From contig JAFGQV010000176.1 of NCBI GenBank assembly GCA_016935475.1, forward strand, positions 1 through 38,034: a stretch of 38,034 nt of DNA. Reading direction: 5' to 3'. The DNA comes from Methanosarcinaceae archaeon. GTDB lineage: Archaea > Halobacteriota > Methanosarcinia > Methanosarcinales > Methanosarcinaceae. The notes beneath the pieces were generated by a model. The model was given only the letters and a program-made list of their open reading frames with translations, ran no database searches and was not told the DNA's origin. Position 1 is the first letter of the stretch. Each line of letters opens with the position of its first letter. The position numbers were made by a program, and so were the translations under genes. Positions 7,844 to 35,730 of the stretch are shown here, in pieces.

Positions 7844-8864
7844 TCTTATGATTGTTATCTCCCCGGTGTCTGCATCATATGCGGGGGACAGCCCGTTGAT
7901 GAACGTTATCCACGATACCCACAGGGGTGATGTTGAGTTCACCTTTGGAGACAGCATATATGGGGGGGAGATGATGTGCAATGACACATACACGGTCAAT
8001 TTTGAAGTTGATATCCCGGTAAACGGGAGCATAAGGGTTGCAAGGGCATATACGTACTGGGTATGGAGCAAAATCGGACTTGAAGGCATATATCCTCTGG
8101 TCAATGCCTCGCTCGTCCATGATGGTAGTGTTGTTCCGGTTTCATCCTTAGCCAGATATACCGATACAAAAGGATTTGTGGCAAGATATGACTTCTTTTC
8201 AGGTACAGATGTCTATGACCTGAGCAACCAGATACGCGAAGACGGAATGTATTCGATATCACTGGAGAATTCGGCAGAAGACGATCGGACGTTCTGTATG
8301 CAGGGAATCGGACTTCTTATTGTCTATGAATCAGAGGACATGCCTGTCATTGAATACTGGGTCAATGAAGGCTGTGATATGCTTTATGCGGAATACGGTA
8401 TCACCCCCAAGATGGCAACCACAACAACATACTTTGAAGGGGATGTGGATGTGGAAACGGTGGACAGGGCCGAACTGATCACAGTGTCCCCTTCAGGCGG
8501 CTACACCCAGGGTGCAAAACAGACCCGCAACAGGCTGTATTTTAATGAAAAAACAGAGGGTACACCGATTCTGGGAGATATCATAAAGCTGCTGTTCGGT
8601 AGCGGAAAATCATGGAAGGACGTGTACCTCACCAGCGAATCGGTCCAGATCGCCATAGACGAGCGGGAGGTTACTAATTATCTCAAATCCGTGGACAATT
8701 TCGCCAGTATCCAGGACAGCGGAGATTACCTTCTGGCAACAAATGCCATAATGGTACTGGAGTACGGGGATTCGACCGGGCAGGAAACTGAGGATACCCA
8801 TGGGTTTGGACTGCTGTCAGGTATCTTTTCGGTGATCATTGCCTGTGCAATAGCTAAAAGGTGA
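7812..8864 (+). CDS. DUF3344 surface protein with PGF-CTERM-like tail
   Basis: An exported protein of about 350 residues. The ATG at 7812 has GAGG seven bases upstream and is preferred to the in-frame ATG at 7800. Either choice overlaps the preceding gene. A signal peptide (to about ISPVSA) is followed by a single DUF3344 domain of the second subtype, marked by GDSIYGGE, ARAYTYWVWS, EYWVNEGCDML and TTTTYFEG. The C-terminus (HGFGLLSGIFSVIIACAIAKR) is a tripartite sorting tail: an HGF variant of the PGF motif, a hydrophobic stretch, and basic residues. The mature protein is therefore probably cut and lipid-linked by an archaeosortase, or simply membrane-anchored. It is translationally coupled to its neighbours. 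Its ligand is unknown. Confidence 0.78.
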   Translation: MSIRSCIILLSLMIVISPVSASYAGDSPLMNVIHDTHRGDVEFTFGDSIYGGEMMCNDTYTVNFEVDIPVNGSIRVARAYTYWVWSKIGLEGIYPLVNASLVHDGSVVPVSSLARYTDTKGFVARYDFFSGTDVYDLSNQIREDGMYSISLENSAEDDRTFCMQGIGLLIVYESEDMPVIEYWVNEGCDMLYAEYGITPKMATTTTYFEGDVDVETVDRAELITVSPSGGYTQGAKQTRNRLYFNEKTEGTPILGDIIKLLFGSGKSWKDVYLTSESVQIAIDEREVTNYLKSVDNFASIQDSGDYLLATNAIMVLEYGDSTGQETEDTHGFGLLSGIFSVIIACAIAKR

Positions 8865-8876
8865 TCGATATTGTGC

Positions 8877-9545
8877 ATGATTGAGACCAGTGGATTGTCA
8901 AAATATTATACGTTCGGCTCAGGAGGTCGGATTACAGCCCTAAATGATGTGAGCATAACGATCTCAGGTGGTGAGTTCGTTTCCATTGTCGGTCCGTCAG
9001 GGTCTGGCAAGTCCACGCTGCTCAATATAATCGGATGCCTGGACCAGCCGAGCACGGGTGATATCTATCTGGACAATGCAAGGCTGGATTACGGAAATGC
9101 TGCAAGTCTGGTCCAGCTGCGCAGGCATACAATAGGTTTTGTCTTCCAGGCGTTCAACCTTATTTCAAGCATGAACGCAATGGAGAATGTTGCCTATCCC
9201 ATGTATTTTAACAGGGTTCCTAAGCCTCAGAGGGAAAAGAGGTCGCTGGAATTATTAGAATCAATGGGTTTGGGAGAGCGGGCGTTGCATCTTCCCTCCG
9301 AGTTGTCAGGTGGTGAGCAGCAGAGGGTTGCCATAGCCCGGGCACTTGTAAACAACCCCCGGATTATCCTGGCAGACGAACCGACCGGTAACATTGATTC
9401 AAAGAACGGTAAAAAGATAATCGAGCTCATGAAACAGGTAAACAGGGATCAGGGGATTACGTTTCTTGTTGTCACACATGACATGAAAATGGCTGAAAAT
9501 GCCAGCAGGGTGATAAAAATGGTGGATGGTGAGATTGTTGATTGA
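8877..9545 (+). CDS. ABC transporter ATP-binding protein (MacB/LolD type)
   Basis: An ATPase subunit of about 222 residues in the MacB/LolD/FtsE branch, pairing with the FtsX-like permease encoded next. Motifs are Walker A GPSGSGKST (about 39-47), Q-loop FQAFNL, signature LSGGEQQRVAIARAL (about 143-157), Walker B IILADEPTGNID, and the H-loop in VTHDMKMAE. The 'ADEPTGNID' form is typical of this branch. AGGTGATC at 8859-8866 is a perfect archaeal ribosome-binding site. It could serve a TTG at 8871 or the ATG at 8877. The ATG gives MIETSGLSKYY, the usual family start. MacB-type complexes are mechanotransmitters rather than classic channels, and usually act on extracytoplasmic proteins or small molecules. 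Confidence 0.93.
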   Translation: MIETSGLSKYYTFGSGGRITALNDVSITISGGEFVSIVGPSGSGKSTLLNIIGCLDQPSTGDIYLDNARLDYGNAASLVQLRRHTIGFVFQAFNLISSMNAMENVAYPMYFNRVPKPQREKRSLELLESMGLGERALHLPSELSGGEQQRVAIARALVNNPRIILADEPTGNIDSKNGKKIIELMKQVNRDQGITFLVVTHDMKMAENASRVIKMVDGEIVD

Positions 9546-10719
9546 AGATTTCTCAATGGCTTTCAGGCAGTTACGCATGAAGAAAGCCAGGACCTTCCTC
9601 ATCCTGCTGGGAATATCGATAGGAGTTGCGGCTGTGGTGGGAGTTGCGTCCCTCGGGGAAGGTATACGTGTAAATGCTGTGGAAGAGATCCAGCGGTCAC
9701 ATGACCTGACATTGATCGAGGTATCACCCGGGCTCAGCAGCGGGAACCTTGTCCTGATAACGGAAGCAAAGGTGGATGCCATCAAGGATTACGGAGTGGC
9801 GGTCTCACCATATGTCAGTGATGCGTACGTCACCACGAATAAGACATATTTTGAGGTCATCGGCATCTCACAGGATTACCTGGATGTGAAAGGTCTTGAG
9901 ATTGATACCGGTGCCGTTTTTGAGGACGGAACACGCCAGATGGTTCTGGGAAGCGATATAGGAGAGAAATTTGAAAAAATCGAAGGTGCCGGGATTGGCG
10001 ATGTTATAGAGGCACAATACAGGTCATACGGAGAAGATGGCAGGTCCGTTGATAAGGACACGAACTTTGGTCTTGTGGGTGTGTTGAAACCCACGGGCAC
10101 CGATGCAGATGACCGTGTTTTCATTGATATCAATACTGCACTGGAACTTGATGAGAAGGACGTGTATGACGGAATTACAGTGAAGGTCGACAGGTCCGAC
10201 CAGGCGACGGCTGCAAGGGCTGCCATTGAGAGGCTCGGACTGTCCTGTTACAGTGCACAGGACGAAATCGATTCGGTCAACAAGATAATGAACGGTGTGA
10301 CCCTTGTCCTCGCCTTCTTCTCAGGCATATCCCTGATAGTGGGCGGACTCATGATCATTAACACGATGGTGGTCTCGGTATACGAGCGGACACGGGAGAT
10401 CGGGATTGCAAAAGCCACGGGTGCATCGGAGTTCGATGTCATCAGGATGTTCCTGTCCGAGTGCATCATAATAGGTATAGTTGGGGGGATACTGGGTGAC
10501 GTTCTCGGGATACTCTTTTCCCTGATGATAGATGGTGTCGGGAAGCCCATCCTGGTGGCAAAGCTGGGGATAAGTAATTTCGAGCACCTGACTGCAATCA
10601 ATATTGAAATACTGGTGGCAGGGTTTTTGGTATCATTGATCATATCCGTGATATCAGGGATCTATCCTGCATGGAGGGCTGCAAAGCTGGATCCTGTCAG
10701 GGCTTTGAGACAACTGTGA
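9526..10719 (+). CDS. FtsX/MacB-like ABC transporter permease
   Basis: A 397-residue permease overlapping the ATPase gene by 20 bp. It shows the family plan: a first membrane helix near the N-terminus (about residues 20-42), a large extracytoplasmic MacB-type core (about 45-255), and three C-terminal helices forming the FtsX domain (about 265-395). The latter ends in the typical YPAWRAAKLDPVRALRQL. The start is uncertain: ATG 9526 is used here, while TTG 9538 has a better-spaced GGTGAG. Its location between DUF3344 genes suggests that the transporter serves the DUF3344 surface proteins or their ligand. This is inference from operon structure only. Confidence 0.9.
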   Translation: MVRLLIEDFSMAFRQLRMKKARTFLILLGISIGVAAVVGVASLGEGIRVNAVEEIQRSHDLTLIEVSPGLSSGNLVLITEAKVDAIKDYGVAVSPYVSDAYVTTNKTYFEVIGISQDYLDVKGLEIDTGAVFEDGTRQMVLGSDIGEKFEKIEGAGIGDVIEAQYRSYGEDGRSVDKDTNFGLVGVLKPTGTDADDRVFIDINTALELDEKDVYDGITVKVDRSDQATAARAAIERLGLSCYSAQDEIDSVNKIMNGVTLVLAFFSGISLIVGGLMIINTMVVSVYERTREIGIAKATGASEFDVIRMFLSECIIIGIVGGILGDVLGILFSLMIDGVGKPILVAKLGISNFEHLTAINIEILVAGFLVSLIISVISGIYPAWRAAKLDPVRALRQL

Positions 10720-10725
10720 GTGGTG

Positions 10726-11661
10726 ATGAATATCAAAAAAAGTATTATAGCAATCCCAGTGATTATCGGTATCATGCTGGTCCTGTCCATGTTCCCGCCT
10801 ACCGGTGGGTGGCAGGGTGACGGGACCCCCCTCTATACGATCGCGGAGGGCGTCGTTGATGGCGGGGTATATGTGGATGGAGGTCACGGTTACACATATG
10901 AGAATCCCTATGTCGCGTATTTCGAGGTTCCTGAAGGGGCGGTGAACTATGCAAGACTCTACATACCGGTGTGGAACTATGATGACAGCGATACCATGGA
11001 AGTGACGGTCAATGGCAACATCATGGCGATACGGGAGGAACCTGACTATAACTCTGCATGGGGTGTTGCAGGATATTGCTGTAACGTCACAGGACTCGTA
11101 CATTCCGGGATGAACGAAGTATCGGTTAACTCGGACAATCCGGGCGGAGGTCCCTACGGCGTCGCTCTTGTTGCAGTGTATGAATACTCTTCCATGCCTC
11201 CTGTCAGGTTCTGGATAAACGAGGGGAATTATGCCCTGGCGTATACGAACAGGAAAGATACGACCACTACCACATTCAGTAACAGTATTCCCGGCAAGAA
11301 TGCCACCCTGCACACATTGCTGGTTGCAGGTACGGAAGGAGAGGTCGACGAACTTTACCTTGGGTCGGAGCTGATCGGCAGGGACGTCGGACGTTCTGCC
11401 ACCGGGAAATATTTTGACTTGCACAGTTTCGAAATTACCGTGAAAGAACCCGAAACCACACTCAGGTTCGAACGTGGGGACGAAGGTTATATTCACCCCA
11501 TCATTGCAGTACTCGTTTCAGGATCCGACACTGACAGGGAATATATGGAAATCCATGAGCAGCGCTCAGTTAATGGCAACAGTGTCCCGGTATCCGTGAT
11601 AGCTGTTTGCCTGATAACACTGGCAGCCATACTGCTAAAGTTTAGGAGGGGCCGGTCATGA
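10726..11661 (+). CDS. DUF3344 surface protein, C-terminally anchored
   Basis: A protein of about 311 residues. The ATG at 10726 (MNIKKSIIAIP) is preferred to an in-frame GTG at 10720 that abuts the permease stop. It has an N-terminal signal segment, one DUF3344 domain (about 30-265) of the YVDGGHG subtype, and the C-terminal HPIIAVL motif. The second GHG motif seen in related copies is absent (GYCCNVTG occupies its place). The C-terminus has a hydrophobic segment followed by KFRRGRS, an ordinary stop-transfer anchor without a clear PGF motif. The stop overlaps the next start (ATGA, 11658-11661), tying this surface protein to the S-component-like gene. Confidence 0.77.
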   Translation: MNIKKSIIAIPVIIGIMLVLSMFPPTGGWQGDGTPLYTIAEGVVDGGVYVDGGHGYTYENPYVAYFEVPEGAVNYARLYIPVWNYDDSDTMEVTVNGNIMAIREEPDYNSAWGVAGYCCNVTGLVHSGMNEVSVNSDNPGGGPYGVALVAVYEYSSMPPVRFWINEGNYALAYTNRKDTTTTTFSNSIPGKNATLHTLLVAGTEGEVDELYLGSELIGRDVGRSATGKYFDLHSFEITVKEPETTLRFERGDEGYIHPIIAVLVSGSDTDREYMEIHEQRSVNGNSVPVSVIAVCLITLAAILLKFRRGRS

Positions 11662-12755
11662 GATATGCCACGATCATAGCGTTGTTGATAATCTCGATTT
11701 TGCTGGTTCCGGTGTCCGTATCGGTTGAAGGTAATACAATCACCGCTGAAAATACCGCCCCTGACCAGGCATTAACGGTTACCATGGACATTCCCCTTAA
11801 CAAGGATATGGCTGTGGATGTGCTCGTAGCCGGACATTCATGGGAAAGGGCAAGAATAAATATAGAGAACAATGCAGATGAAACCCTGACCAATGTTTAT
11901 GTGAAGGTGGAAGTGCCTGAATACGTGGAGATAAGCATACCTACCCAGCCTGTCAGTATCGAACAGACCGATCAGGCAATAACGGCAACCATCGGTGATA
12001 TTGAACCGCATGGGCTGGTCACCATCCTGCTGGATGTAAAACCCCCGGGATCGATCGAGTTCAAGAAGGATGTGGTGTTTTCCATCACTGCAACCCATGA
12101 TACCGGCGAACTTGTCAGTGCACACCAGGTCAGGATCATACCTCCGCCTTCATGGGTGACATATCTCACAATCCTGGCAAGTCTGTTGCTGTTTATCGGC
12201 ATCATCGCCGCAGTAAAACGTTTTGGAATACTTGAGACGTTCACAACGGTCGACCTTATAACGATAGCACTCATCGCCGCTCTTATCGCTGTTGTTTTCA
12301 GGTACTTCAGCAAGCTGGTAAACCTTGGATGGTTTGACGGACTGGTCATTGCGATACCAACCGTAGCACTGATGATAGTGGCACTGCAGATGGTCAGGAA
12401 ACCCGGTACTGCCACTCTGTTGTTCACAGTCGTGCTGCTCATAAGCATGGTGATATGGGGTTCACACATCATGTGGCTGGGATTCTACCTGCTTGAAGGT
12501 GTTACCGTTGATCTTCTTGTGCTGCTGTTCAAAATGGACTACGCAGACAGGCGGCTCACCGCGGTAATTTACGGCGTCGCCAGAAGCGCAACTGCAACCC
12601 TGGTATTTTACATGCTGTTCGCACCTGTGGAGTGGAAGATCTACTATGCTACCTGGTACATCCTGCTCCAGCTTGGTATTGCCTGTTCCGGCGGTCTGAT
12701 CGGCGGTCTTCTGGGATACGAAACCGCCGTGAAAATGAGTGGAGCCCGGCTCTAG
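11658..12755 (+). CDS. ECF transporter S-component-like membrane protein with extracytoplasmic beta-sandwich
   Basis: A 365-residue protein. It has a signal/anchor segment (1-22) and an extracytoplasmic beta-sandwich of the NEW3/CARDB-like kind (about 45-160). One extra membrane helix follows (about 166-186), then about six helices (195-360). The membrane part starts FTTVDLITIALIAALIAVVF and includes MVRKPGTATLLFT (245-257) and a GxxxxLLEG segment, which resembles the YkoE-type S components of energy-coupling factor importers. The A and T subunits expected of such a transporter are the next two genes. Typical S components are only about 180-200 residues with no outer domain, so the extra domain is unusual. 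It might dock DUF3344 proteins. The start overlaps the DUF3344 gene by 4 bp and a good AGGAGG site lies upstream. The substrate is unknown. Confidence 0.68.
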   Translation: MRYATIIALLIISILLVPVSVSVEGNTITAENTAPDQALTVTMDIPLNKDMAVDVLVAGHSWERARINIENNADETLTNVYVKVEVPEYVEISIPTQPVSIEQTDQAITATIGDIEPHGLVTILLDVKPPGSIEFKKDVVFSITATHDTGELVSAHQVRIIPPPSWVTYLTILASLLLFIGIIAAVKRFGILETFTTVDLITIALIAALIAVVFRYFSKLVNLGWFDGLVIAIPTVALMIVALQMVRKPGTATLLFTVVLLISMVIWGSHIMWLGFYLLEGVTVDLLVLLFKMDYADRRLTAVIYGVARSATATLVFYMLFAPVEWKIYYATWYILLQLGIACSGGLIGGLLGYETAVKMSGARL

Positions 12756-12883: not shown

Positions 12884-14626
12884 CTACAATGCCACATCAT
12901 TTGTTTCCAGATAGCGCTTAAACTCATCCACTGTCAGCATTACAGGAACATCGATCCCTTTTTTTCTGAGGTCAAGAGATAGCCTGGTGATAACCGGAGA
13001 TTCGATACATGTTTCCTGCAGTTCCTCTGTCATGGAGAACACATCACGTGTTGAGCCGTTAAGGAATATCTCCCCTTTTTTCATTACAATCGTCCTGTCT
13101 GCATACTCGGCTGCAATGTTCATGTCATGGGTTATCAGGATCACTGTTTTGCCAAGGTTGTTAAGTTCTTTTATCTGGTGCAGGAATTTATTCACATGCC
13201 CCCGGTCCTGACCGGTTGTTGGCTCATCCAGTACAAGGAGGTCAGGTTCCATGGCAAGAATGGATGCAACTGCCAGACGCTGGCGTTGTCCCCGTGACAG
13301 TGAGTGCGGATGCCTGTTACCGTATCCTTCAAGTTCCATCATTTCCAATGCTGCTTTGACCCGCTTATCCATCTCATCTTTGCTCACCCCAACGTTCTTC
13401 AGCCCGAACCTGATCTCTTCCATAACATTATCAGTGAATATCTGGTCATCCGGGTTCTGGAACAGATAACCCACACGCTGTGCCAGCTCGGCGGTTGACA
13501 GGTTGCTTATGTCTTTCCCGTCGATGAGAATCCTTCCCCTGCATGGTTTTAGCAGACCTATCAGATGGTTGCTGAGGATTGTTTTTCCGGCACCGTTATG
13601 TCCGATCAATGCCACGAACTCTCCGTGATTTACCTGTAAATTGATGTCCTTCAATCCGCTTGATCCGTCTTCATGATCATGCCACATTTTTTCGATAACG
13701 ACATGGGGGATTGTTGCCGGCGGAACGATGTCATTTTCAATAGAAGAGCTGCATGAGGAATCCTTTAATAACCCTGTCAGGAATTCCAGCATTGGTTCAT
13801 AGGTAGATGGTGCCTTAAGACCATACTTTGTTCTCAGGACATGGGATACCTCTGTAATCTGTGGAGGATATATACCGTTTCTTTTAAGGTGGTCATGCTC
13901 CTGTTCGAAGATATTGCAGGGATTCCCATCAAGTGATATCCTGCCGTTTTCCATTACGATCATGCGGTCTGCGAGTTTTATGACCTCATCGATCTTGTGT
14001 TCGATCAGGATTATGGTCATGTTCTTTTCCCTGTTCAGCCGTTTGATGATGTCCAGCACTTCTTTAGTGCCCACAGGGTCAAGGTCTGACGTAGGCTCGT
14101 CGAGGACGAGTATATCAGGCTCCATTGCAAGGTTTCCCCCAATCGCAGTTCGCTGCTTTTCTCCACCCGAGAGCGTGAAGATAAAATGATCTTGAAGATC
14201 CTCCATTCGAACTGCTTTTAGCGAGGAATCTACACGTTTGAGAATATCCTGTTTGTCAAGACCCAGATTCTCAGGTCCGAAAGCGACATCTTCACCAACT
14301 GTCAGGGAGAACAGTTGTGTGCCAGGGTTCTGGAATACCATTCCTACATGTAAGGCAATTTGATTGACTTTTTTCCCGCCGGTATCTTTTCCATTAAGCA
14401 CTATGTTCCCTTGCAGGTCGCCCCCTGCTACTTCAGGGATTAACCTGTTCAGGCACCGGACAAGAGTGGTTTTTCCACAACCGCTCGGTCCCACAAGCAG
14501 TATGAACTCCCCTGGCTCGATATTCAGGTTCACATCCTTGATAGACGGTGAATCAGAGTGTGGATAATAATAAGTGAGGTCTTTGATATGTAACCGGATG
14601 TTCTCCCGATCTTTTTGTTTGCCCAT
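12884..14626 (-). CDS. ECF transporter ATPase, fused A-A' subunits
   Basis: 580 residues containing two complete ABC ATPase domains in one chain, as in many archaeal and actinobacterial ECF transporters. Domain 1 has Walker A GPSGCGKTT (46-54), signature LSGGEKQR (152-159) and Walker B ILVLDEPTSDLD (172-183). Domain 2 has GHNGAGKT (342-349), LSRGQRQR (443-450) and LLVLDEPTTGQD (463-474). The second signature has R in place of the usual G, which is common in this family. It drives import together with EcfT, encoded divergently, and an S component, most simply the protein at 11658-12755. The stop is TAG. A GGAG site lies nine bases before the ATG. Confidence 0.93.
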   Translation of the reverse strand: MGKQKDRENIRLHIKDLTYYYPHSDSPSIKDVNLNIEPGEFILLVGPSGCGKTTLVRCLNRLIPEVAGGDLQGNIVLNGKDTGGKKVNQIALHVGMVFQNPGTQLFSLTVGEDVAFGPENLGLDKQDILKRVDSSLKAVRMEDLQDHFIFTLSGGEKQRTAIGGNLAMEPDILVLDEPTSDLDPVGTKEVLDIIKRLNREKNMTIILIEHKIDEVIKLADRMIVMENGRISLDGNPCNIFEQEHDHLKRNGIYPPQITEVSHVLRTKYGLKAPSTYEPMLEFLTGLLKDSSCSSSIENDIVPPATIPHVVIEKMWHDHEDGSSGLKDINLQVNHGEFVALIGHNGAGKTILSNHLIGLLKPCRGRILIDGKDISNLSTAELAQRVGYLFQNPDDQIFTDNVMEEIRFGLKNVGVSKDEMDKRVKAALEMMELEGYGNRHPHSLSRGQRQRLAVASILAMEPDLLVLDEPTTGQDRGHVNKFLHQIKELNNLGKTVILITHDMNIAAEYADRTIVMKKGEIFLNGSTRDVFSMTEELQETCIESPVITRLSLDLRKKGIDVPVMLTVDEFKRYLETNDVAL

Positions 14627-14768: not shown

Positions 14769-15635
14769 ATGTTGAGATGGTTGTTCCGTTATGAACAGAA
14801 AGATACTGTTATCCACAGGCTGGACCCGAGAGTGAAATTAGTGTGGCTGTTCGGATTGTCAATCCTGACAGTTGTGCTGGGTGTTCCATGGTTACTGGTC
14901 CTGCTCTTCCTCTCAACTCTGCCTTTCTGGTTCATGTTGGCTCCCTCAATAAGCAAAATCAGGGCAATGGTCTGGTTATTTGGCGCCATTGTGTTGGGGT
15001 TCGTTATATCGCAATCTCTGTTCTATTACTGGGCTGAAGAACCTTTCTTGACCATTGTACCGTCTACTTTTCCGGTTATTGGATATTTGACCGGGGGAAT
15101 CTGTCTTTATTCTGACGGTGCAATGTACGGTTTATTCCAGTCTTTCCGTTTCATGACCACTGTGAGTGCTGCAATGGTGGTGGTGGCTACCACCCATCCC
15201 AGTGAGTTAATCATTGCACTTGTCAGATTTTCCTGTCTAAAGGTAGGAAACCGCGAATACCATATTGGTCTTCCCTATGAGATTGCGTTCATGGTTTCCT
15301 CTGCGGTCAGTTTTGCCCCTTCTATGATAGAGGAATGTGCCATTATCGTAAATTCGATGAAAGCAAGGGGACTTGAACTGAAAGGCGGTATAAGTACAAA
15401 AATAAAGGCTTTGAGATACCTCTTTGTACCTATGGTCATTAACATCCTGCGGGGTGGCAGACAAATTGCGATTGCAGCTGATGCGAGAGGATTTCGTGCA
15501 ACTGCGAACAGGACCTATGTGAAAGAACTCAAGCTTAAAGGTAATGATTACGTTTTTCTTCTGTATACAGTTGTTTTCACGGTAACCGGACTGTATCTGA
15601 GTTTTATTGGTTTCGGGGGCACAGCCCCAATCTGA
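14769..15635 (+). CDS. ecfT: ECF transporter transmembrane subunit EcfT
   Basis: 288 residues of the CbiQ/EcfT family (PF02361), the scaffold linking the ECF ATPases to the S component. The N-terminus has the characteristic HRLDPRVKL element (about 17-25) just before the first membrane helix. The cytoplasmic coupling region carries two Ala-Arg-Gly motifs, KARGLELKG near residue 199 and DARGFRA near residue 239, which insert into the ATPase grooves in solved ECF structures. There are about five to six membrane helices. AAGGTGATAC immediately upstream is a strong ribosome-binding site. The CbiQ relationship alone does not identify cobalt as the substrate, because EcfT proteins serve many vitamins and metals. 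Confidence 0.92.
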   Translation: MLRWLFRYEQKDTVIHRLDPRVKLVWLFGLSILTVVLGVPWLLVLLFLSTLPFWFMLAPSISKIRAMVWLFGAIVLGFVISQSLFYYWAEEPFLTIVPSTFPVIGYLTGGICLYSDGAMYGLFQSFRFMTTVSAAMVVVATTHPSELIIALVRFSCLKVGNREYHIGLPYEIAFMVSSAVSFAPSMIEECAIIVNSMKARGLELKGGISTKIKALRYLFVPMVINILRGGRQIAIAADARGFRATANRTYVKELKLKGNDYVFLLYTVVFTVTGLYLSFIGFGGTAPI

Positions 15636-16259: not shown

Positions 16260-17951
16260 ATGGAACGGAAAATCGAAATCAATGTCCGAAAAATTATCTT
16301 ACTTTTTTTGATTACATTATTTTTTATTAGCGAAGGGCAGGCAGCCCAGAGCGTGGTATCCATTGGTGATGTCAGTGTGGAAAGCGGCAACGATGTCATT
16401 GCTACCATCATGATCAATGATATTACCAATTACGGGACAGCTACAATTGAAGTCACATATGATCCAGCCGTTGCAGTGGTCACTACCGTGGAAAGCACTT
16501 CTGATTCCACTGTCACTGTGGCGAATTACGACAACAGTGCCGGTAGTGTTATTATCTCGGCATGGAACATAGCTGGAGTAAGCGGCGACGTGGAGTTTGC
16601 AGGTGTCAAGTTCAATGCGGTTGGCAGTGGAGGAAGTTCGACACCCCTGACCCTTGAAGTTAACAGTCTCATTGATACTTCATACAACAATATAGCTTCA
16701 ACCACTGATGACGGTACCCTTTCCGTAATTGCATCCTCAGACTCAAGCAACGGGTACGACGGTGACAATCCCCTGACGATTTTTTCCCATGATACGTTCG
16801 CAGGTAACCTGACCTATACCACTGGCAGTAGCTATTACAGCGGCAAGCTATATACGAATGCTGAATATGAAGTTACTCATTCCGTTTCTATCCCGTCCGG
16901 TGCTACTGTAGAGTTTGCAAGGCTCTATGCCTACTGGACATGGAGTGCGCTAGGTTCAACCGGACGATATCCTGACCTGAAACTCGTTTTTGACGATGAT
17001 GAACTTACCCCGGATGCGGAATATAATGACAGCAAAGGGTTCGAACCTTATAACTATCCCGGGGGAACATGGGCATATGATGTCACAGAATACATAACAG
17101 GGTCCGGAGATCATGAGACTTTGATCGTGAATACCGGACCTGATGGCAGTTACTTTGCAGTAAGTGGAGTTGGTCTGCTGGTGGTCTACAGCGATCCGGA
17201 TGGAGACGAGATGGAGTACTGGATAGCCGAAGGCTGTGATTACCTGTCATCCCAGGAGGAAGCGGGACTCACTCCTGAGGAATCCACCACAGAGACAGTG
17301 TTTTCCGGGTCAATCGACCCAACGGCAGTCGAAGAAGCCAGACTTACCACAGTGGTCCAGTCAGGAAACGATCCTGACGATATGCTGATGTTCAACTCCA
17401 AGAGCTGGACCGGAATATATGATGGTACACCCTATGCCGATCTGGATGTGGACGAGCAGGATGTACTGGATCACCTTGTTTATAACGATAATACTGTCAA
17501 AATGAGGGCAGTAGACGATTACATGGCGCCCTGCAACGCCTTTTTAGTGCTCAGGCACACATTGTCATCAGAGCCGACACCAACGCCAGCTCCGGCAGGT
17601 GGGGGTACGGTGTCCCTGACAGCCTATATCATCCCTGCAATATCCATCGAGGTCACCCCCTCGTCTGTCTATTTCGGTTCCCTCGGACCCGGGGAAATAA
17701 GTGCAAATCACGAGGTGCTCATCAAGAATAAAGGATCGAACACCATCGATGTGACATCAGAGGTTACAGATACTGCCCAGGACCTGTATGTCGACGGTCT
17801 GCAGATAAACAATGCAGGATGGTCAGTTTACGAGACACGGCTGAATCCAAGCGGCACGGTAAATGCTGATCTGAGGCTCAAGGTTCCTGTTGATTATGCC
17901 GGTGTAGGAGAAAAAGAAGGGAAACTGATGTTCTGGGCACAGCAGGTATAA
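16260..17951 (+). CDS. Cohesin-DUF3344 surface protein
   Basis: 563 residues from the ATG at 16260 (MERKIEINVRK). The frame is open further upstream, but this start is the one followed directly by a signal peptide. Domains are a cohesin (about 28-158, with the typical VSIGDVSVESGNDV, EVTYDP, SGDVEFAGVKF and STPLTLEV), a DUF3344 of the second subtype (about 162-440, with SYYSGKLYTNAEYEV, YAYWTWSALG and EYWIAEGCDYL), a Thr/Pro linker (PTPTPAPAGGG), and a C-terminal beta-sandwich of about 110 residues starting ISIEVTPSSVYFGSL and ending LMFWAQQV. There is no hydrophobic tail. Cohesins bind dockerins, and two dockerin-bearing proteins are encoded immediately downstream. It probably displays or recruits them at the cell surface. 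Confidence 0.8.
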   Translation: MERKIEINVRKIILLFLITLFFISEGQAAQSVVSIGDVSVESGNDVIATIMINDITNYGTATIEVTYDPAVAVVTTVESTSDSTVTVANYDNSAGSVIISAWNIAGVSGDVEFAGVKFNAVGSGGSSTPLTLEVNSLIDTSYNNIASTTDDGTLSVIASSDSSNGYDGDNPLTIFSHDTFAGNLTYTTGSSYYSGKLYTNAEYEVTHSVSIPSGATVEFARLYAYWTWSALGSTGRYPDLKLVFDDDELTPDAEYNDSKGFEPYNYPGGTWAYDVTEYITGSGDHETLIVNTGPDGSYFAVSGVGLLVVYSDPDGDEMEYWIAEGCDYLSSQEEAGLTPEESTTETVFSGSIDPTAVEEARLTTVVQSGNDPDDMLMFNSKSWTGIYDGTPYADLDVDEQDVLDHLVYNDNTVKMRAVDDYMAPCNAFLVLRHTLSSEPTPTPAPAGGGTVSLTAYIIPAISIEVTPSSVYFGSLGPGEISANHEVLIKNKGSNTIDVTSEVTDTAQDLYVDGLQINNAGWSVYETRLNPSGTVNADLRLKVPVDYAGVGEKEGKLMFWAQQV

Positions 17952-17999
17952 TGATTACTGAATACTAACTGGATAAACATATATATGAGGTGAGGTGGA

Positions 18000-19079
18000 A
18001 TGAAACCAATCAAGATAGCTTTGCTGCTGCTTATGGCATGCATTTTTGCATCCCCTGCATCAGCGGTGTATAATTATAACGGATATGACCTGATTACAGC
18101 GGCACACGACACGATAAACGGCGAAGTCTATGTCGGCGGTGGTCATGGCATAGCAGATGCCGTATCCCAACCATATTCTCAGGATTTTGCGGTTCCGTCC
18201 GGGACAGTGAACTTTGCGAGATTGTATGTGGGAGTATGGGGCAGCACTGAGACGTACGTTGGTACATTACAGACCACTTTCAACGGAAACGATCTTGGCA
18301 CGCTCACCCTTGAAGGCGAACTGGACTCTAATGCAAATGTTTGGTGTACCGGTCATGGTGTGTACTGGGTGTACTACGATGTTACATCCCTGACTGCAAG
18401 TGGCACCAATACTGCAGTATCAAGCACTGCCAAAATCAGTCCTTCTTTTGATGGCAGGATATATGGCATGGTGCTGGTAGCTGCAGTTGAAAACCCGGCT
18501 AAGACAGAAGTGGAATACTGGATCAACGATGGGCACTGGAACCTTAACAGCCTATTCAATACGGCAACGACCCTGTTCAGCGGAACGATAGCCAATCCTG
18601 ATGGCAAGTGCGCGATACTTTCCACCGTTTACCTTGCGGGAGATCCACTCGATGCCGATACACTTCAATTTAACGCAGGTTCCGTAATAACCGATGCTGC
18701 GGATGGGCGTGGCAGCGATGAATGGGGCAATTCCTGGCAGGGTGCTTTTGATATCGATGAATGGTGGAACAGTGCAATCAATGGAGCTTCCATTCTGACG
18801 GCTGAGAATAACGCAGCAACATTTGACAGGGGCACTGATCCATATCTCCATCCGGTACTGGCTGTACTGGAGGTCAGACCTGACATGCTTGGGGATGTGA
18901 ACGTGGACGGATCTGTCAATATTTTCGATGCTGTAAAAACCAGAAATCGTGCAATAAATCCGTCTTATATACTGGAATGTTCTTGGGCAGCGGACGCCAA
19001 TCAGGATGACTATATCAATATTTTTGATGCTGTGAAAGTACGAAATCGAGCAATAAATCCAGAATACCCGCTTCCGTGA
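18000..19079 (+). CDS. DUF3344 protein with C-terminal dockerin
   Basis: 359 residues. It has a signal peptide (to ASPASA, about 22), a DUF3344 of the GGGHG subtype (about 25-290, with YVGGGHG, WCTGHGVYW and YLHPVLAVL), and a type I-like dockerin (about 297-359). The dockerin shows two near-identical halves: DVNVDGSVNIFDAVKTRNRA and DANQDDYINIFDAVKVRNRA. Each has the D-x-N-x-D calcium loop and the following helix. The ATG at 18000 has a strong GAGGTGAGG site. The gene lies 48 bp after the cohesin-DUF3344 gene and is probably cotranscribed. The product should bind one of the cohesins encoded at 16260, 19175 or 21877, making it a plug-in component of a surface complex. Confidence 0.83.
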   Translation: MKPIKIALLLLMACIFASPASAVYNYNGYDLITAAHDTINGEVYVGGGHGIADAVSQPYSQDFAVPSGTVNFARLYVGVWGSTETYVGTLQTTFNGNDLGTLTLEGELDSNANVWCTGHGVYWVYYDVTSLTASGTNTAVSSTAKISPSFDGRIYGMVLVAAVENPAKTEVEYWINDGHWNLNSLFNTATTLFSGTIANPDGKCAILSTVYLAGDPLDADTLQFNAGSVITDAADGRGSDEWGNSWQGAFDIDEWWNSAINGASILTAENNAATFDRGTDPYLHPVLAVLEVRPDMLGDVNVDGSVNIFDAVKTRNRAINPSYILECSWAADANQDDYINIFDAVKVRNRAINPEYPLP

Positions 19080-19174
19080 AATTACAATCGATGAAAATTT
19101 ATTATTCAAATTAATATGCAGCACAAATCGCTGTCTATTATATAAAAAATTGTGAAAAAAACAGGAGGTACGAA

Positions 19175-21817
19175 ATGAGAATTAATAATATATTGCTGAG
19201 GACATTGTTAGTGTTAGTGGCAATGGCAGCAATGCCAACAGCCATGGCTGCAAACACTTTCTACCTTGCTCCTCAGGATAGTACAGGAATTTCAGGCAGT
19301 TCCACAACAGTGGATATGATGCTGGATGCAGACACAGACTTTGCAGGCTACCAAGTGAATATTAACTTTGATAACTCTATTGTTGATATATCCGGAGCAT
19401 CCTATGTCCTCTGGGGCTCAAGTACCATCTATAATGGCGGTACCTATATAACGGTAGGTAACATGGGAGCTTCTACAGGTGCTGGTACATATACCCTTGC
19501 AACTTTGACATTGGAAGGTCAAGCTGCACTTGGGGTATCTGACCTGACCTTTAGCAATACTATGCTGTCAGACCCTGGAAGTGAAGCACTAACTCATACT
19601 GCAACAGACGGTACCTACACAAACTACGTACCAGTGGTTACTGAGCCGGACATTGTTGTGACAAATATCGATCCGTACCAGAATATATTTGTGGACGCAA
19701 CCAACGTCTTTACGGTACATGTGAAAAACCAGGGAACTGCTGACGTGACAGGCAGTTTTGATGTGGCATGGGAGATAACCGATGGCAGCACAACCCTTGC
19801 CAGCGGTACTGAGACAATTACAGGTCTGAATATCGATGAAGAAAAGACCTTTGACTTCGAATGGGAACCCACGGTATTGCAGGATACCACCGTATCAGCT
19901 ATGGCAGATTCGGGAAGTGCGGTTTCCGAATCAGATGAGGACAATGACCTGTCAGTTACCTATGTATCAGGCACCAGCATCCTTCCGTTATCTGCGTGGG
20001 GATACGGTGGAGATGAACCACTTACAAACTACGAAACCGGTGAAGTGGTAGGAGACCTGATCTACACCTTTGGTGACTCTGCCTATCTTAGTAGCGGCTC
20101 ATGGTCTACATATACCGTGAACTTTAACATCGGCAGCGATACCAACCAGATAAGCAAAGCCGTAGAAGGCATAGGTAGTGGTACTGTGAAAGAGGCAAGA
20201 CTCTACATGTACTACAACTCGTACAAATCTACCTTGGGTACCTTGCCATCTGATCCTGAAGAGAAGTTGACTATGACTTTTGACGGGAACTCCATATCCA
20301 CAGATGCGAAATATGAAGATTCCCCAGGATTTGGTGCTTATGACAACAAATACGGCACCTTTGCCTATGACGTAACCCAGTATGTCACAGGTGACGATGC
20401 ATACCAGGCAGTATTGACCAACGATGGCGGTACCGATGGTCCAGCTATTTATAGTATGGCACTGCTGGTCATCTATGAGGACGGTTCCAAGAACAAGAAA
20501 GAATATCACATAGCAGAAGGATATGACCTGCTCACGCAGTATTATTACAGTTCCTCAGCTAAAAGATACTCTTACCATGTAGTTCCTGAAGATGCTACAT
20601 CCACCTTTTATATGCCTGAGGCGACAGGGGGGAATCCCACTCTGTTCACTGTTGCTCAGGCTACAGGAAGCACTCCTGAAAAGCATAGCAGACTTTACTT
20701 CAATACCAATTACTGGAGCGACCCATGGACGACCATTTTTGGTAGCACCGGAACTGACATTGAAGATGTGTCTGTATTAAACGCTGACCCCAACACAGTA
20801 GCATTCCAGGACAGGGGCGATGGCTACAGTGCCACAAACGCGATCCTGATCTCAGAATTAGGGTATGAGATTGACCTCGGTGGTAATCAGAACACAGAAA
20901 TTGGAAGGCACATCATGGTTCCAATCACAGCCAATGACCTTGAACAGTTCTACGGCACTGTGGAGATGAACCTGGAATATGATACTGGCTACTTCGATTT
21001 CGTGGCGGTCCACAGCAGTCCTGATTCCATAGTAACTGCTTATGATCCAGAAGATGATGGCGTTCTGGAGATGTCTGCCTGGAACCAGGATGGCGTAAAA
21101 GGAGACGTGGTGCTGGCAACAGTAGAGCTTTATGTTGATAGTGGCGCAGGAGAAAGCCCTGAACTTACTTTGAGTGTTGGCTTGTTACAGGATATCTATG
21201 GAAATGATATCCATGCATATGCTGTTCCCGCAACAATCAACATCATGGACCCGGATACTGATCTGAAAGTAGAGGCAACATCAACACCAGTATCACAGCT
21301 TGGCAAAGATAATGCCGGTATCCTCAACAGCAACGGAAGGCTGAGGCATACTGGAGATAACGAAACTGTGATTTCTGCGACTGTTACTGATTCCGGTCTC
21401 GGTATAAAGTCGGTTACAGTTGACCTGTCAGCCATTGGCGGCTCGTCCAAGACCCCGATGTCATTCAATTCTGGTAAATACGAAGTGACCGCAACCGCCA
21501 CTGCTGGAATTAGTCTCGTTCCTCACACATTTGTGGTTACTGCCACAGATAACGGAGGTAACACTGCTACAGACACTACCAACGAACTGACAGTGTACAG
21601 GCGCGGCGATGTTACTAAAAACAACGTGGTGGATATGGGTGACGCATTGTATATCGCAAGATATACTGTGGGAATTGAACCTGAAGGTTTTAACCTAAAC
21701 CGCTTCAAATTTGTTGGCGATGTTCAGCCTGCTGATGGCTACGATGAACATATCACCAACATGGGTGATGCACTCTATATCGCGAGGTATACTGTAGGTC
21801 TCGAACCGGCACCATAA
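19175..21817 (+). CDS. Large scaffold: cohesin-CARDB-DUF3344-cohesin-Ig-dockerin
   Basis: 880 residues with a signal peptide (to AMAA, about 26). Domains in order are a cohesin-like domain (about 28-150), a CARDB (about 158-265, starting PDIVVTNIDPYQNIF and ending SDEDNDLSVTYV), and a DUF3344 of the second subtype (about 270-560, with GDSAYLSSG, ARLYMYYNSY and EYHIAEGYDLLTQ). These are followed by a second cohesin-like domain (about 562-690, with MNLEYDTGYFDF and KGDVVLATVELYV), an Ig-like domain (about 695-800) and a dockerin (about 809-880) built from two GDALYIARYTVG helices. The first calcium loop is DVTKNNVVDMGD, and the second carries an insertion. Having both cohesins and a dockerin, it could link several partners, as a cellulosomal scaffoldin does. 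An AGGAGGT site precedes the ATG. Confidence 0.82.
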   Translation: MRINNILLRTLLVLVAMAAMPTAMAANTFYLAPQDSTGISGSSTTVDMMLDADTDFAGYQVNINFDNSIVDISGASYVLWGSSTIYNGGTYITVGNMGASTGAGTYTLATLTLEGQAALGVSDLTFSNTMLSDPGSEALTHTATDGTYTNYVPVVTEPDIVVTNIDPYQNIFVDATNVFTVHVKNQGTADVTGSFDVAWEITDGSTTLASGTETITGLNIDEEKTFDFEWEPTVLQDTTVSAMADSGSAVSESDEDNDLSVTYVSGTSILPLSAWGYGGDEPLTNYETGEVVGDLIYTFGDSAYLSSGSWSTYTVNFNIGSDTNQISKAVEGIGSGTVKEARLYMYYNSYKSTLGTLPSDPEEKLTMTFDGNSISTDAKYEDSPGFGAYDNKYGTFAYDVTQYVTGDDAYQAVLTNDGGTDGPAIYSMALLVIYEDGSKNKKEYHIAEGYDLLTQYYYSSSAKRYSYHVVPEDATSTFYMPEATGGNPTLFTVAQATGSTPEKHSRLYFNTNYWSDPWTTIFGSTGTDIEDVSVLNADPNTVAFQDRGDGYSATNAILISELGYEIDLGGNQNTEIGRHIMVPITANDLEQFYGTVEMNLEYDTGYFDFVAVHSSPDSIVTAYDPEDDGVLEMSAWNQDGVKGDVVLATVELYVDSGAGESPELTLSVGLLQDIYGNDIHAYAVPATINIMDPDTDLKVEATSTPVSQLGKDNAGILNSNGRLRHTGDNETVISATVTDSGLGIKSVTVDLSAIGGSSKTPMSFNSGKYEVTATATAGISLVPHTFVVTATDNGGNTATDTTNELTVYRRGDVTKNNVVDMGDALYIARYTVGIEPEGFNLNRFKFVGDVQPADGYDEHITNMGDALYIARYTVGLEPAP

Positions 21818-21830
21818 ACATGAAACCACC

Positions 21831-21866
21831 AAGTGATGTCCTGACGGGCATCACTTTATTTTTTTT
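21831..21866 (+). terminator. Intrinsic-type terminator after the scaffold gene
   Basis: AAGTGATG (21831-21838) pairs with CATCACTT (21849-21856) across a 10-base loop and is followed by a run TATTTTTTTT. It lies 14 bp after the stop of the 880-residue gene. It also sits inside the longest open frame of the next gene, which supports the later start used here for that gene. Confidence 0.75.
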
Positions 21867-21876
21867 GGAGATGCAA

Positions 21877-22437
21877 ATGAAACACATGAAAAATGGACAG
21901 TTATCGCTGGTTATTCTTATATTCATTATGACGACCCTTATTGTTCCGGCGTCAGCAGGTGAAGTCACCGTATCCATCGGAAACATAGCCGCAGACACGG
22001 ACGGAACATGTATGGTAGCCGTAGTCATGGAATCCGTCAGTAATTACGGTACAGGTGCCATAACTATAGAATATGATCCCTCTATCGTGCATGTTACCGA
22101 TGTAACGGGTTCCGAGGATTCTACTGTTGTTGCCTGGAATGCTGACAACGACATCGGTGAGGTGAAGATAGCAGCATGGAACCTGTATGGCATCAGCGGT
22201 CACATCGACTTTGCTACAATTACATTCGAGGATGCCGGGAAAAGCGGCTCCACCCCCCTGACCGTCAAGGTAGATGAACTTATCACCTATGACCCGGAGG
22301 GCAACCAGATAAAAATCGAGGCAAAGGCGATCAACGGAAAATACACATCATCTGCAAAATCAACTCCCGGATTTGGTTTGTTTGCAGGTGTGTCTGTGTT
22401 GTTGATTACCCTGCAGGTACTGAGCAAAAAGAAATAA
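21877..22437 (+). CDS. Membrane-anchored single-cohesin protein (PGF-CTERM)
   Basis: 186 residues from the ATG at 21877 (MKHMKNGQLSLVILIF), which has GGAG seven bases upstream. The open frame extends back to 21820, but that part overlaps a terminator hairpin. The protein is a signal peptide, one cohesin domain (about 27-155, with VTVSIGNIAADTDG, ITIEYDPSI, ISGHIDFATITFED and STPLTVKVD), and a C-terminal sorting tail STPGFGLFAGVSVLLITLQVLSKKK. PGF-CTERM tails are substrates of archaeosortase A, so this is a minimal cell-surface cohesin anchor. It could be the docking point for the dockerin proteins encoded just upstream. Its cohesin is close to that of the 16260 protein. Confidence 0.82.
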   Translation: MKHMKNGQLSLVILIFIMTTLIVPASAGEVTVSIGNIAADTDGTCMVAVVMESVSNYGTGAITIEYDPSIVHVTDVTGSEDSTVVAWNADNDIGEVKIAAWNLYGISGHIDFATITFEDAGKSGSTPLTVKVDELITYDPEGNQIKIEAKAINGKYTSSAKSTPGFGLFAGVSVLLITLQVLSKKK

Positions 22438-29886: not shown

Positions 29887-31899
29887 ATGAAAGACCACAC
29901 GATAAACGCCTATCCTTTCACTGCCATTGTAGGGCAGGAAAAGATGAAAAAAGCACTGATACTGAATGCTATTAACCCGAAGATCGGCGGAGTCCTGATC
30001 AGGGGGGAAAAGGGTACCGCAAAGTCCACTGCTGTGCGTGCACTTGCAAACCTTCTTCCCGAGATCGAAGTTGTGGAAGGCTGCATCTTCGGATGCAACC
30101 CCGGGAATACAAATGAGATGTGCAGCGCCTGCCTCGAAAAACTAAAGCAGGGAGAATTGAAGAGCGAGCGTCGTAAGATGCGGGTCGTTGACCTGCCTGT
30201 CAGTGCAACCGAGGACCGGGTGGTTGGAACCCTGGACATAGAACATGCTATCAAAAAAGGCGAAAAACAGTTCGAACCCGGAGTAATGGCTGCGGCTCAC
30301 CGGGGTATACTATATGTGGATGAGATCAACCTTCTGGACGACCATATCGTTGACGTGCTGCTGGATTCTGCTGCCATGGGTGTTAACACTGTGGAGCGCG
30401 AGGGAGTGTCGTTTTCCCATCCTGCTTCGTTTATCCTGGTCGGAACAATGAATCCCGAGGAGGGGGAACTGCGTCCGCAGTTACTTGACAGGTTCGGCTT
30501 ATGTGTTGATATCGAGGGTATACATGATGCCCCTGCCAGGGTCGATGTCATCAAGCGAAGGCTTGCATATGAGAACGACCATGAGGGATTTGCAGCAGAG
30601 TGGAAGGAATCCGAGATGGAAATGTGCAAGAGCATCATTGCTGCAAAGGATCTGCTTCCGGATGTTCGGATAACGGATGATATACTTGAATTGATCGCGC
30701 AGATATGCATCGATATGCAGGTGGACGGTCACCGTGCCGATATCACGATGATGAAGACTTCATGCACCATTGCATCCTTCAATGGGCGGACAGAGGTCAC
30801 AGAGGAGGATGTGAAGGAGGCTGCCGAACTTGTCCTGTCACACAGGATGCGAAGAAAACCCTTCGAGGAACAGTCCGGAAACCAGGAGAAACTGGACGAG
30901 ACGATTAACAAGCACAAAGAAAAGCAGCAAGAGAAGCAACAACAGGAAAGGGAGATGGAGCAGCCTGAACAAAAACAACATATGGAACAACCTCAGGACC
31001 CTGAGCAGAACAATGACACTTCCCATCACAGTCAGGATGTGCCAGATGAGGTTGATGTGACCACTTTTGAAACCGGGGAAACCTATCATGTAAAGCAGCT
31101 CTCAGCCAAGCAGATCCCGATGAGCAGGAATGGTTCAGGCAGGCGCAGTAAAACAAGAACTGATTCAAAGTCTGGCAGGTATGTCAAAAGTGCAATTCCA
31201 CATGAGAGGACTAACGATGTTGCATTTGACGCGACATTCCGGGCTGCGGCTCCGCACCAGATCAGGCGTGAAAAGAACGGGAAAGCGATCGCCATCGAAC
31301 AGTCCGATATTAGGAAAAAGGTGCGTGAGAAAAAGATCGGGAATACGGTACTTTTCGTTGTGGATGCCAGCGGTTCCATGGGTGCCCGGCAGCGCATGAC
31401 GGCTGCAAAAGGTGCGGTACTGTCCCTGCTAATAGATGCATACCAGAAACGGGACCGTGTGGGGCTTATTGCGTTCAGGGGCGAGGAAGCTGAACTCCTG
31501 CTCCCGCCTACATCCAGTGTCGAACTTGCCAAAAAGTATCTTGATATCATGCCAACCGGTGGTAAGACGCCACTTCCTCACGGTCTCACAAAAGGATACG
31601 AGGTCATACAGTCCGAGCTCAGACGCGAGCCTGATGCGTGTCCATTTCTTATCCTGATCTCAGATGGCAAGGCAAATGTCAGCATGCAGGGCAAATCGGC
31701 TATGGATGAGACAATAAGCATCGCATCACAGTTCAGGATGGACGGTATTCCTTCTACTGTTATCGATACCGAGGTGGGGGCTATCAGATTCGGATTTGCA
31801 CGGCAGATATCAGAAGCCCTCGGAGCCAGACACCTGAAACTTGAAGAACTTCGGTCGGATTCAATTGTAAGCGCAGTGAAATTTTCGATTGGTGGATAA
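29887..31899 (+). CDS. Fused ChlI/ChlD-type AAA+ and VWA chelatase subunit
   Basis: 670 residues. An AAA+ ATPase of the magnesium/cobalt chelatase type (about 8-325) has Walker A GEKGTAKS (40-47), Walker [11 protein letters not shown] (141-150) and [15 protein letters not shown] (187-203). Four cysteines at 66, 70, 79 and 82 form a probable metal or Fe-S site. A low-complexity Gln/Glu linker (about 328-385) leads to a von Willebrand A domain with MIDAS DASGS (493-497), [10 protein letters not shown] and LISDGKAN. ChlI and ChlD are usually separate. This single-chain form is common in archaea and serves as the ATP-driven motor of class I chelatases. CobN at 1686 is its expected substrate-binding partner. 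The two genes enclose the surface cluster. An AGGT site lies upstream. Confidence 0.92.
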
Positions 31900-34593: not shown

Positions 34594-34733
34594 ATCCCGA
34601 ACAACCTGATCTTATCTTCGGATGAAAGGCAGTTATGTTTTATCAAGGTTTTTATAATGACTGGGTGGCAAAAAATCAAATGATGTTTTTTCTTTTTGGC
34701 TGTAAAAAGGAAAACAGAAATAAACCCATCCTT

Positions 34734-35711: not shown

Positions 35712-35730
35712 GTTATCACCACCAGAGTTT

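Follow-up and report, generated by a model that had tools for sequence, protein, structure and literature searches.

A DUF3344 surface-protein locus with cohesins and dockerins in a Methanosarcinaceae archaeon, and its possible role in corrinoid or metal-tetrapyrrole acquisition

Introduction

In the clostridial cellulosome, dockerin-bearing enzymes are held on a cohesin scaffold. Cohesins and dockerins are also abundant in anaerobic methanotrophic (ANME) archaea (PMC5244752), and a further report describes, from ANME archaea, proteins combining several cohesins with a dockerin, as well as dockerins on substrate-binding proteins of the NikA/OppA and TroA types, which belong to metal-type ATP-binding cassette (ABC) systems (PMC9012536). 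Here we analyse a stretch of 38,034 nucleotides (contig JAFGQV010000176.1 of assembly GCA_016935475.1, positions 1 to 38,034 of the forward strand; hereafter the window), one contig of the incomplete (76%) 1.8 Mb genome of a Methanosarcinaceae archaeon, in which four adjacent genes, P1-P4, combine cohesins and dockerins with DUF3344 (PF11824), a large family without a function. DUF3344 genes of the same locus are flanked by genes for the chelatase subunits CobN and ChlID, an energy-coupling factor (ECF) transporter, a MacB-type ABC pair and an ABC-2 exporter, and we give an even chance to the reading that P1-P4 tether the DUF3344 surface array of a locus for the acquisition of corrinoids or metal tetrapyrroles (or of cobalt or nickel).

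Several parts of this locus have counterparts in the clostridial cellulosome: its cohesins, the dockerin whose calcium loops are duplicated, the anchored cohesin (P4) and P3, which resembles an adaptor in having cohesins as well as a dockerin. Among solved cohesins, the nearest belong to the adaptor scaffoldin ScaB. The locus differs in lacking any detected carbohydrate-active enzyme or cellulose-binding module, in having DUF3344 as cargo and in its CobN, ChlID, ECF and MacB neighbours. The ANME proteins are likewise archaeal chains with several cohesins and a dockerin, whereas DUF3344 is absent from the main text of PMC9012536 and the available text of both ANME reports (PMC9012536, PMC5244752) gives no link to a chelatase/ECF locus. 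On the Methanoperedens plasmid HMp_v1, extracellular DUF3344 proteins are encoded beside NikR, CbiMNQO and EcfT/EcfA genes; in the available text of that report, these were not read as one system and cohesins and dockerins are unmentioned (PMC9674854). The Hmu heme acquisition system of Bacteroidota also encodes a CobN-family chelatase (the de-chelatase HmuS) together with surface capture and transport proteins, but the surface-protein and transporter families are others, and heme is proven there, while the ligand here is a proposal (PMC12583661). LhaSTA of Staphylococcus lugdunensis is likewise an ECF-type transporter, for a tetrapyrrole; its report, as far as available, describes no DUF3344 and no chelatase, and the S subunit found here has an added ectodomain (PMC7299338). 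In the literature searched, with subscription papers and supplements outside the search, DUF3344 is named in only two papers, and we found neither the DUF3344-cohesin-dockerin combination nor any link of DUF3344 to cohesins, CobN or corrinoid uptake. An initial annotation of this DNA had suggested that the arrangement was undescribed, which, within the literature searched, holds for that combination, but not for archaeal multi-cohesin proteins with dockerins, nor for surface proteins with DUF3344 encoded next to NikR and EcfT/EcfA, both of which are reported in the work cited above.

Domain content of the P1-P4 proteins

An open reading frame (ORF) check of the window recovered the four genes where the initial annotation had placed them, all on the forward strand and each with a hydrophobic, signal-like segment at the N-terminus of its product. 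P1 (16260-17951) is composed of a signal peptide, a cohesin (residues ~31-155), DUF3344 (residues 165-431) and a C-terminal module of ~110 residues that is common to two other proteins of the locus, P5 and P8. In P2 (18000-19079), a signal peptide and DUF3344 precede a dockerin at the C-terminus, whose calcium loops form two symmetric repeats, DVNVDGSVNIFDAVKTRNRAIN and DANQDDYINIFDAVKVRNRAIN. P3 (19175-21817) resembles an adaptor scaffold, with a signal peptide followed by a cohesin, CARDB, DUF3344, a second cohesin and a C-terminal dockerin-like repeat (MGDALYIARYTVG twice), and P4 (21877-22437) carries, after its signal peptide, a single cohesin and a C-terminal PGF-CTERM-like membrane anchor. 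The Pfam matches to DUF3344 are clear in P1, P2 and P3 (2e-70, 2e-36 and 4e-43, respectively). None of the genes scanned in the window was found to encode a carbohydrate-active enzyme, and the set is therefore not a cellulosome in the sense of dockerin-bearing enzymes on a cohesin scaffold; the set of cohesin, dockerin, DUF3344 and anchor parts without such an enzyme, as first annotated, was confirmed, and it recurs in other genomes (see below). The C-terminal modules of P1, P5 and P8 (17553-17951, 24180-24545 and 27890-28312) are 40-51% identical, reach the cut-off of none of the Pfam models, lack a membrane anchor, and may represent a further surface-attachment module.

Against the Pfam cohesin model PF00963 (cut-off 24.1 bits), the P4 cohesin scored 24.5 bits; in the profile search of the genome the second cohesin of P3 reached 29.6 bits, and the P1 cohesin (22.6 bits) and the first cohesin of P3 (19.9 bits) fell below the cut-off. 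Because these scores lie near the cut-off, a separate hidden Markov model (HMM) was built from 24 cohesins, all from other genomes. It recovered all four cohesins of the window (domain E-values of 6e-20, 6e-20, 4e-12 and 2e-6) and gave zero matches in 200 sets of shuffled proteins; its independence is incomplete, as the seeds were recruited by a model that included the window's own cohesins, and three of the proteins that contributed seeds themselves reach or pass the Pfam cut-off. When a profile of the four cohesins was compared with the PDB, the top matches were solved ScaB cohesins (5e-12), whereas P4 alone, searched directly, returned no cohesin in its match list. The AlphaFold model of P1 has a predicted local distance difference test (pLDDT) score below 50 across the cohesin, where its alignment is thin.

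The P2 dockerin scored 22.8 bits in the protein scan and 24.5 bits in the genome search, against a PF00404 cut-off of 22.9, and has both calcium loops intact and nearly identical; the dockerin profile also retrieves PDB dockerins, and judged by its sequence this domain is convincing. That of P3 is weaker (14.3 bits, under the cut-off): its second loop holds an insertion, both halves repeat the helix MGDALYIARYTVG, and its top match in the PDB, when searched alone, is a dockerin, but with an E-value of 0.13. The P4 C-terminus (...STPGFGLFAGVSVLLITLQVLSKKK) is a PGF-CTERM-like motif. The PGF motif was seen in P4 and in P9, another protein of the locus, and archaeosortase A (ArtA) is encoded in the genome (268 bits), although the scores with the tail models of Pfam and NCBIfam all stay below cut-off. 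As a whole, the ORFs, Pfam and the independent cohesin profiles agree with the four adjacent exported proteins and the parts first assigned to them; the second dockerin and the membrane anchor stand in part, the one on its symmetric repeat and the other on its motif and the presence of ArtA.

It is improbable that the cohesin-like domains are ordinary stalks of immunoglobulin-like or carbohydrate-binding-module fold which bind no dockerin. Two of the four do score under the Pfam cut-off, but independent profiles and PDB cohesins recover all of them, dockerins with intact symmetric calcium loops lie adjacent, and the combination of cohesin and dockerin recurs in other families.

Scaffold proteins in this and other genomes

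Elsewhere in the genome, contigs C56 and C176 hold six further cohesin matches, and C56 has additional dockerins, so P1-P4 need not pair solely with each other. C56 (locus L020, 7417-14846) encodes three paralogous proteins of ~760 residues which end in a cohesin and a dockerin and have ~570 residues without a Pfam match; they adjoin a single-cohesin protein with an anchor-like tail, thus forming a second scaffold set.

Of 45 sampled genomes with DUF3344, 9 encode a single chain that unites this domain with a cohesin; they are distributed over three families (f1, f2 and f10). The closest parallels come from f10: locus L125 encodes a cohesin-DUF3344-cohesin-dockerin chain followed by a cohesin-dockerin protein; in L141 a chain of similar make-up is succeeded by several cohesin-dockerin proteins and by two cohesins whose tails resemble anchors; and in L123 a DUF3344-cohesin-dockerin protein precedes a cohesin-rhodanese protein with a PGF-like tail (7391-8521). 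Given these parallels, the parts list of P1-P4 is a recurring arrangement. The cohesin search gave no match in three DUF3344-containing genomes (G008, G048 and G052), by which the cohesin was rejected as an obligatory partner of DUF3344. Among relatives without DUF3344, 20 of 44 carry cohesins.

Genomic context and recurrence of DUF3344 genes

The genome contains 10 DUF3344 domains, all of them in the window (96-241 bits against a cut-off of 27.2), and the corresponding genes span positions 6077 to 29425, beyond the four genes considered at first, within a locus of ~30 kb. The idea of a self-contained four-gene scaffold was rejected, since P1-P4 lie within this longer conserved CobN/ChlID/MacB/ECF locus and other cohesins and dockerins are present on C56 and C176.

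Upstream of P1-P4, the locus comprises the ABC-2 exporter (162-1654, reverse strand; permease 162-890, ATPase 887-1654), which elsewhere too adjoins CobN/ChlID or DUF3344 genes, and the large subunit of a CobN-type chelatase (1686-5495, reverse; NF004646, 2226 bits). A conserved cassette of forward-strand genes opens with D1 (6077-7843; DUF3344 and CARDB repeats) and continues with D2 (7800-8864; one DUF3344 and a C-terminal transmembrane anchor) and a MacB/LolD-type ABC ATPase (8871-9545); a MacB/FtsX-type permease follows (9526-10719, forward). Next come D3 (10720-11661, forward), with DUF3344 and a C-terminal transmembrane segment, and the gene it adjoins in every locus seen, encoding the candidate ECF S subunit, ECF-S (11658-12755, forward). 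The transporter is completed by the fused double ECF-type ATPase EcfAA (12884-14626, reverse) and the EcfT/CbiQ transmembrane subunit (14769-15635, forward). EcfAA and EcfT are clear, while the S subunit was assigned by position, membrane segments and a weak match to PF09819 (YkoE-like), a family for which the Firmicutes homologue of ECF-S scores above the cut-off. The N-terminal extracytoplasmic domain of ECF-S precedes the membrane segments and could be a docking point for surface proteins. The ChlID-type ATPase subunit of the chelatase is encoded at the other end of the locus (29887-31899, forward; TIGR02442, 892 bits), so that both subunits have equivalog-level profile matches.

The association of DUF3344 with these genes was followed in 60 relatives, the own genome included, of which 16 contain DUF3344 and 44 lack it, and in a phylum-wide sample of 295 genomes, 63 of them with DUF3344. 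Methanosarcina acetivorans, a genetically tractable methanogen with DUF3344, gave a match in each control search. The ECF-S gene was found in 14 of the 60 relatives, all 14 with DUF3344 and none among the 44 without (hypergeometric p = 7e-12, a value that ignores shared ancestry). Other families retain the order EcfAA-EcfT-D3-ECF-S, in many cases with D1-D2-MacB next in line. Across the phylum, the core consists of D1-D2-MacB and long proteins with DUF3344, and CobN, ChlID and ABC-2 genes frequently accompany it; D1-D2-MacB are consecutive in 21 of 45 sampled DUF3344-containing genomes from 9 families, most loci being contig fragments. All eight complete or nearly complete genomes with CobN have a copy of its gene at a distance of 4.8-15.5 kb from one for DUF3344 (joint chance ~4e-12 under independence). 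DUF3344-MacB modules elsewhere adjoin genes for importers of the BtuD/BtuC/Peripla_BP_2 type (BtuFCD-type) or CbiM, and one genome has CbiL, CbiF, CbiH-CbiC, CbiM and a NikL-type subunit beside its module.

The association extends beyond the phylum. A Firmicutes contig has nearly the same set of genes, in the order DUF3344(SLH)-EcfT-DUF3344-ECF-S-EcfAA-CobN-ChlID-ABC2: the upstream DUF3344 proteins number three (two with SLH), the gene after EcfT encodes a fourth, and the contig also has an ExbB-like gene and a second ChlI-like gene. In this locus (L093, 1-7698), where SLH domains anchor the DUF3344 proteins, the ExbB/MotA-like gene perhaps indicates an energised step. A Helarchaeota (Asgard) contig carries DUF3344, EcfAA, EcfT and ECF-S, with no CobN in the stretch examined. 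The larger conserved locus, the DUF3344 loci without a detected cohesin and the SLH anchors of the Firmicutes genome speak against the first description of DUF3344 as taking the place of a catalytic cargo. In the best reading, cohesin-dockerin pairs are one optional means of tethering DUF3344.

The remaining surface genes lie downstream of P4, all on the forward strand. P5 (22470-24545) has two DUF3344 domains and the C-terminal module common to P1 and P8. P6 (24572-25138) is a small exported protein with a C-terminal transmembrane segment and weak BACON/Cep192-like similarity; at 67-77% identity between families it is among the best conserved surface genes. P7 (25092-26798), whose true start probably lies downstream of 25138, combines DUF3344, CARDB, Glucodextran_B (a non-catalytic domain B) and a C-terminal transmembrane anchor; P8 (26795-28312) consists of a DUF11-like domain and the module common to P1 and P5; and P9 (28352-29425) has DUF3344 and a PGF-like C-terminal anchor. 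ChlID is followed by a gene for a tyrosine recombinase (32080-33213), which is XerA-like and also matches a zinc ribbon. The locus is patchy, being absent from a genome of the same genus (G001), which together with the recombinase may hint at mobility; plasmid carriage was rejected, D2 having no match in PLSDB. Past the locus (33787-37646) lie genes for a methyltransferase, a 2-thiouracil desulfurase/DUF1722 protein, a photolyase and a SOUL heme-binding protein.

Structural features of DUF3344

The model of P2 has pLDDT values mostly above 90 over DUF3344, which adopts an all-beta, two-sandwich fold. Its Foldseek matches in the PDB include PNGase F-type enzymes, double jelly-roll capsid proteins, malectin-like ectodomains and BcsB, with low template modelling (TM) scores, as well as furin, which agrees with the likeness to a P-proprotein domain reported earlier (PMC9210967). 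The fold therefore names no ligand. Among the top matches of the DUF3344 models, PNGase F-type glycoamidases reach Foldseek probabilities of 0.80-1.00, as would suit an extracellular enzyme, such as a PNGase F-like amidase with glycoprotein substrates, that a scaffold presents in the manner of a true cellulosome. We hold this to be very improbable: the TM-scores over the whole fold do not exceed 0.15-0.27, double jelly rolls that are not enzymes match just as well in many cases, and a conserved catalytic pattern was not seen, albeit without a test aimed at one. The conserved residues of the domain are chiefly Tyr, Trp, Gly, Asn and Asp.

The main rival to a role in acquisition is adhesion, in which DUF3344 proteins would be adhesins or structural proteins of the envelope and their transport and chelatase neighbours would reflect a common surface or island context and not a ligand. 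When fibrillar adhesins were screened for, DUF3344 came out as a cluster whose function was ambiguous (PMC9210967); adhesins often have jelly-roll-like folds and CARDB repeats, ANME archaea form aggregates, and very long tandem DUF3344 chains exist. An adhesin would, however, not be expected to co-occur so tightly with ECF-S, or to be linked repeatedly, in several families and one bacterium, to CobN, ChlID, BtuFCD and corrin genes, and we regard this explanation as unlikely.

Discussion

Capture of a metal cofactor is proposed because DUF3344 genes sit among genes for the transport and metallation of vitamin-B12-like molecules here and in many relatives, and it is this genomic association that points to the uptake of corrinoids or other tetrapyrroles. 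The scaffold would probably catch a scarce metal cofactor and not cellulose. In the proposed mechanism, P4, fixed at the cell surface, would present a cohesin, P3, with two cohesins and a dockerin, would serve as adaptor, P2 would dock through its dockerin, and P1 would present another cohesin, so that the four proteins would jointly hold several DUF3344 modules as a cell-surface array. DUF3344 would then capture a scarce metal tetrapyrrole, most likely a corrinoid (a cobamide or precursor), possibly cobalt or nickel, and the ligand would pass to the membrane, to the ECF transporter with its ectodomain-bearing S subunit here and to a BtuFCD-type importer in other genomes. In the cytoplasm, CobN/ChlID could insert or remove the metal, while MacB and the ABC-2 exporter may serve in the movement or release of the DUF3344 proteins or the ligand. 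Each single step has a precedent, in the import of heme by LhaSTA (PMC7299338), in HmuS (PMC12583661) and in the ANME dockerins (PMC9012536).

Several observations weigh against corrinoid or tetrapyrrole acquisition. The DUF3344 fold, considered as a clue to the ligand, was rejected as such, being a generic double beta-sandwich whose top structural matches are not tetrapyrrole binders; within the domain, Cys is not conserved, and neither His nor Met rises above ~40% of sequences in a way that would point to the coordination of a metal, so that none of its residues was accepted as convincingly metal-binding. A riboswitch, cobalamin or other, was dropped as a pointer to the ligand, as none was found in the window or in loci L092 and L093. 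The co-occurrence statistics ignore shared ancestry, and ECF-S reached a convincing score in just 2 of the 63 DUF3344-containing genomes of the phylum-wide sample. CobN was unmatched in 6 of 25 tested genomes with DUF3344, three of them on 1-2 contigs (G216, G140 and G148), and hence is not obligatory. Finally, ECF-S resembles YkoE, of the thiamine-precursor type, as much as anything.

This last point belongs to an alternative in which the cohesin-dockerin part is unchanged and the ligand is another ECF substrate, such as nickel or cobalt ion, a thiamine precursor, biotin or heme. EcfAA-EcfT-S with PF09819 resembles YkoEDC; DUF3344 on the Methanoperedens plasmid adjoins NikR, and its authors proposed biotin for the nearby ECF genes (PMC9674854); genes for a NikL-type subunit and CbiM adjoin the loci of two relatives; and LhaSTA imports heme through an ECF transporter (PMC7299338). 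The CobN/ChlID and corrin-biosynthesis neighbours point instead to tetrapyrroles, and no biotin or thiamine genes are among the annotated neighbours, so that such a ligand appears possible though rather unlikely.

Returning to the acquisition of corrinoids or metal tetrapyrroles, its general form, in which cohesin-dockerin scaffolds of methane-cycling archaea hold arrays of DUF3344, as a new class of surface receptors for these ligands, in a cellulosome-like body for scavenging cofactors, and the core of receptor, transporter and chelatase is present also in an Asgard archaeon (with no CobN in the stretch examined) and, with other anchors, in Firmicutes, is put forward more tentatively, at somewhat less than an even chance. 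For DUF3344 itself, the linkage found here offers a testable function. If the proposal is true, it would explain how S-layered archaea, which need much cobalt and nickel for their methyl-transfer and methyl-coenzyme M reductase (MCR) cofactors, obtain scarce cofactors from the environment or from partner organisms, and a cohesin-dockerin assembly would serve nutrient capture instead of polymer digestion. The abundance of cohesins and dockerins in ANME archaea, so far unexplained, would also gain a concrete rationale.

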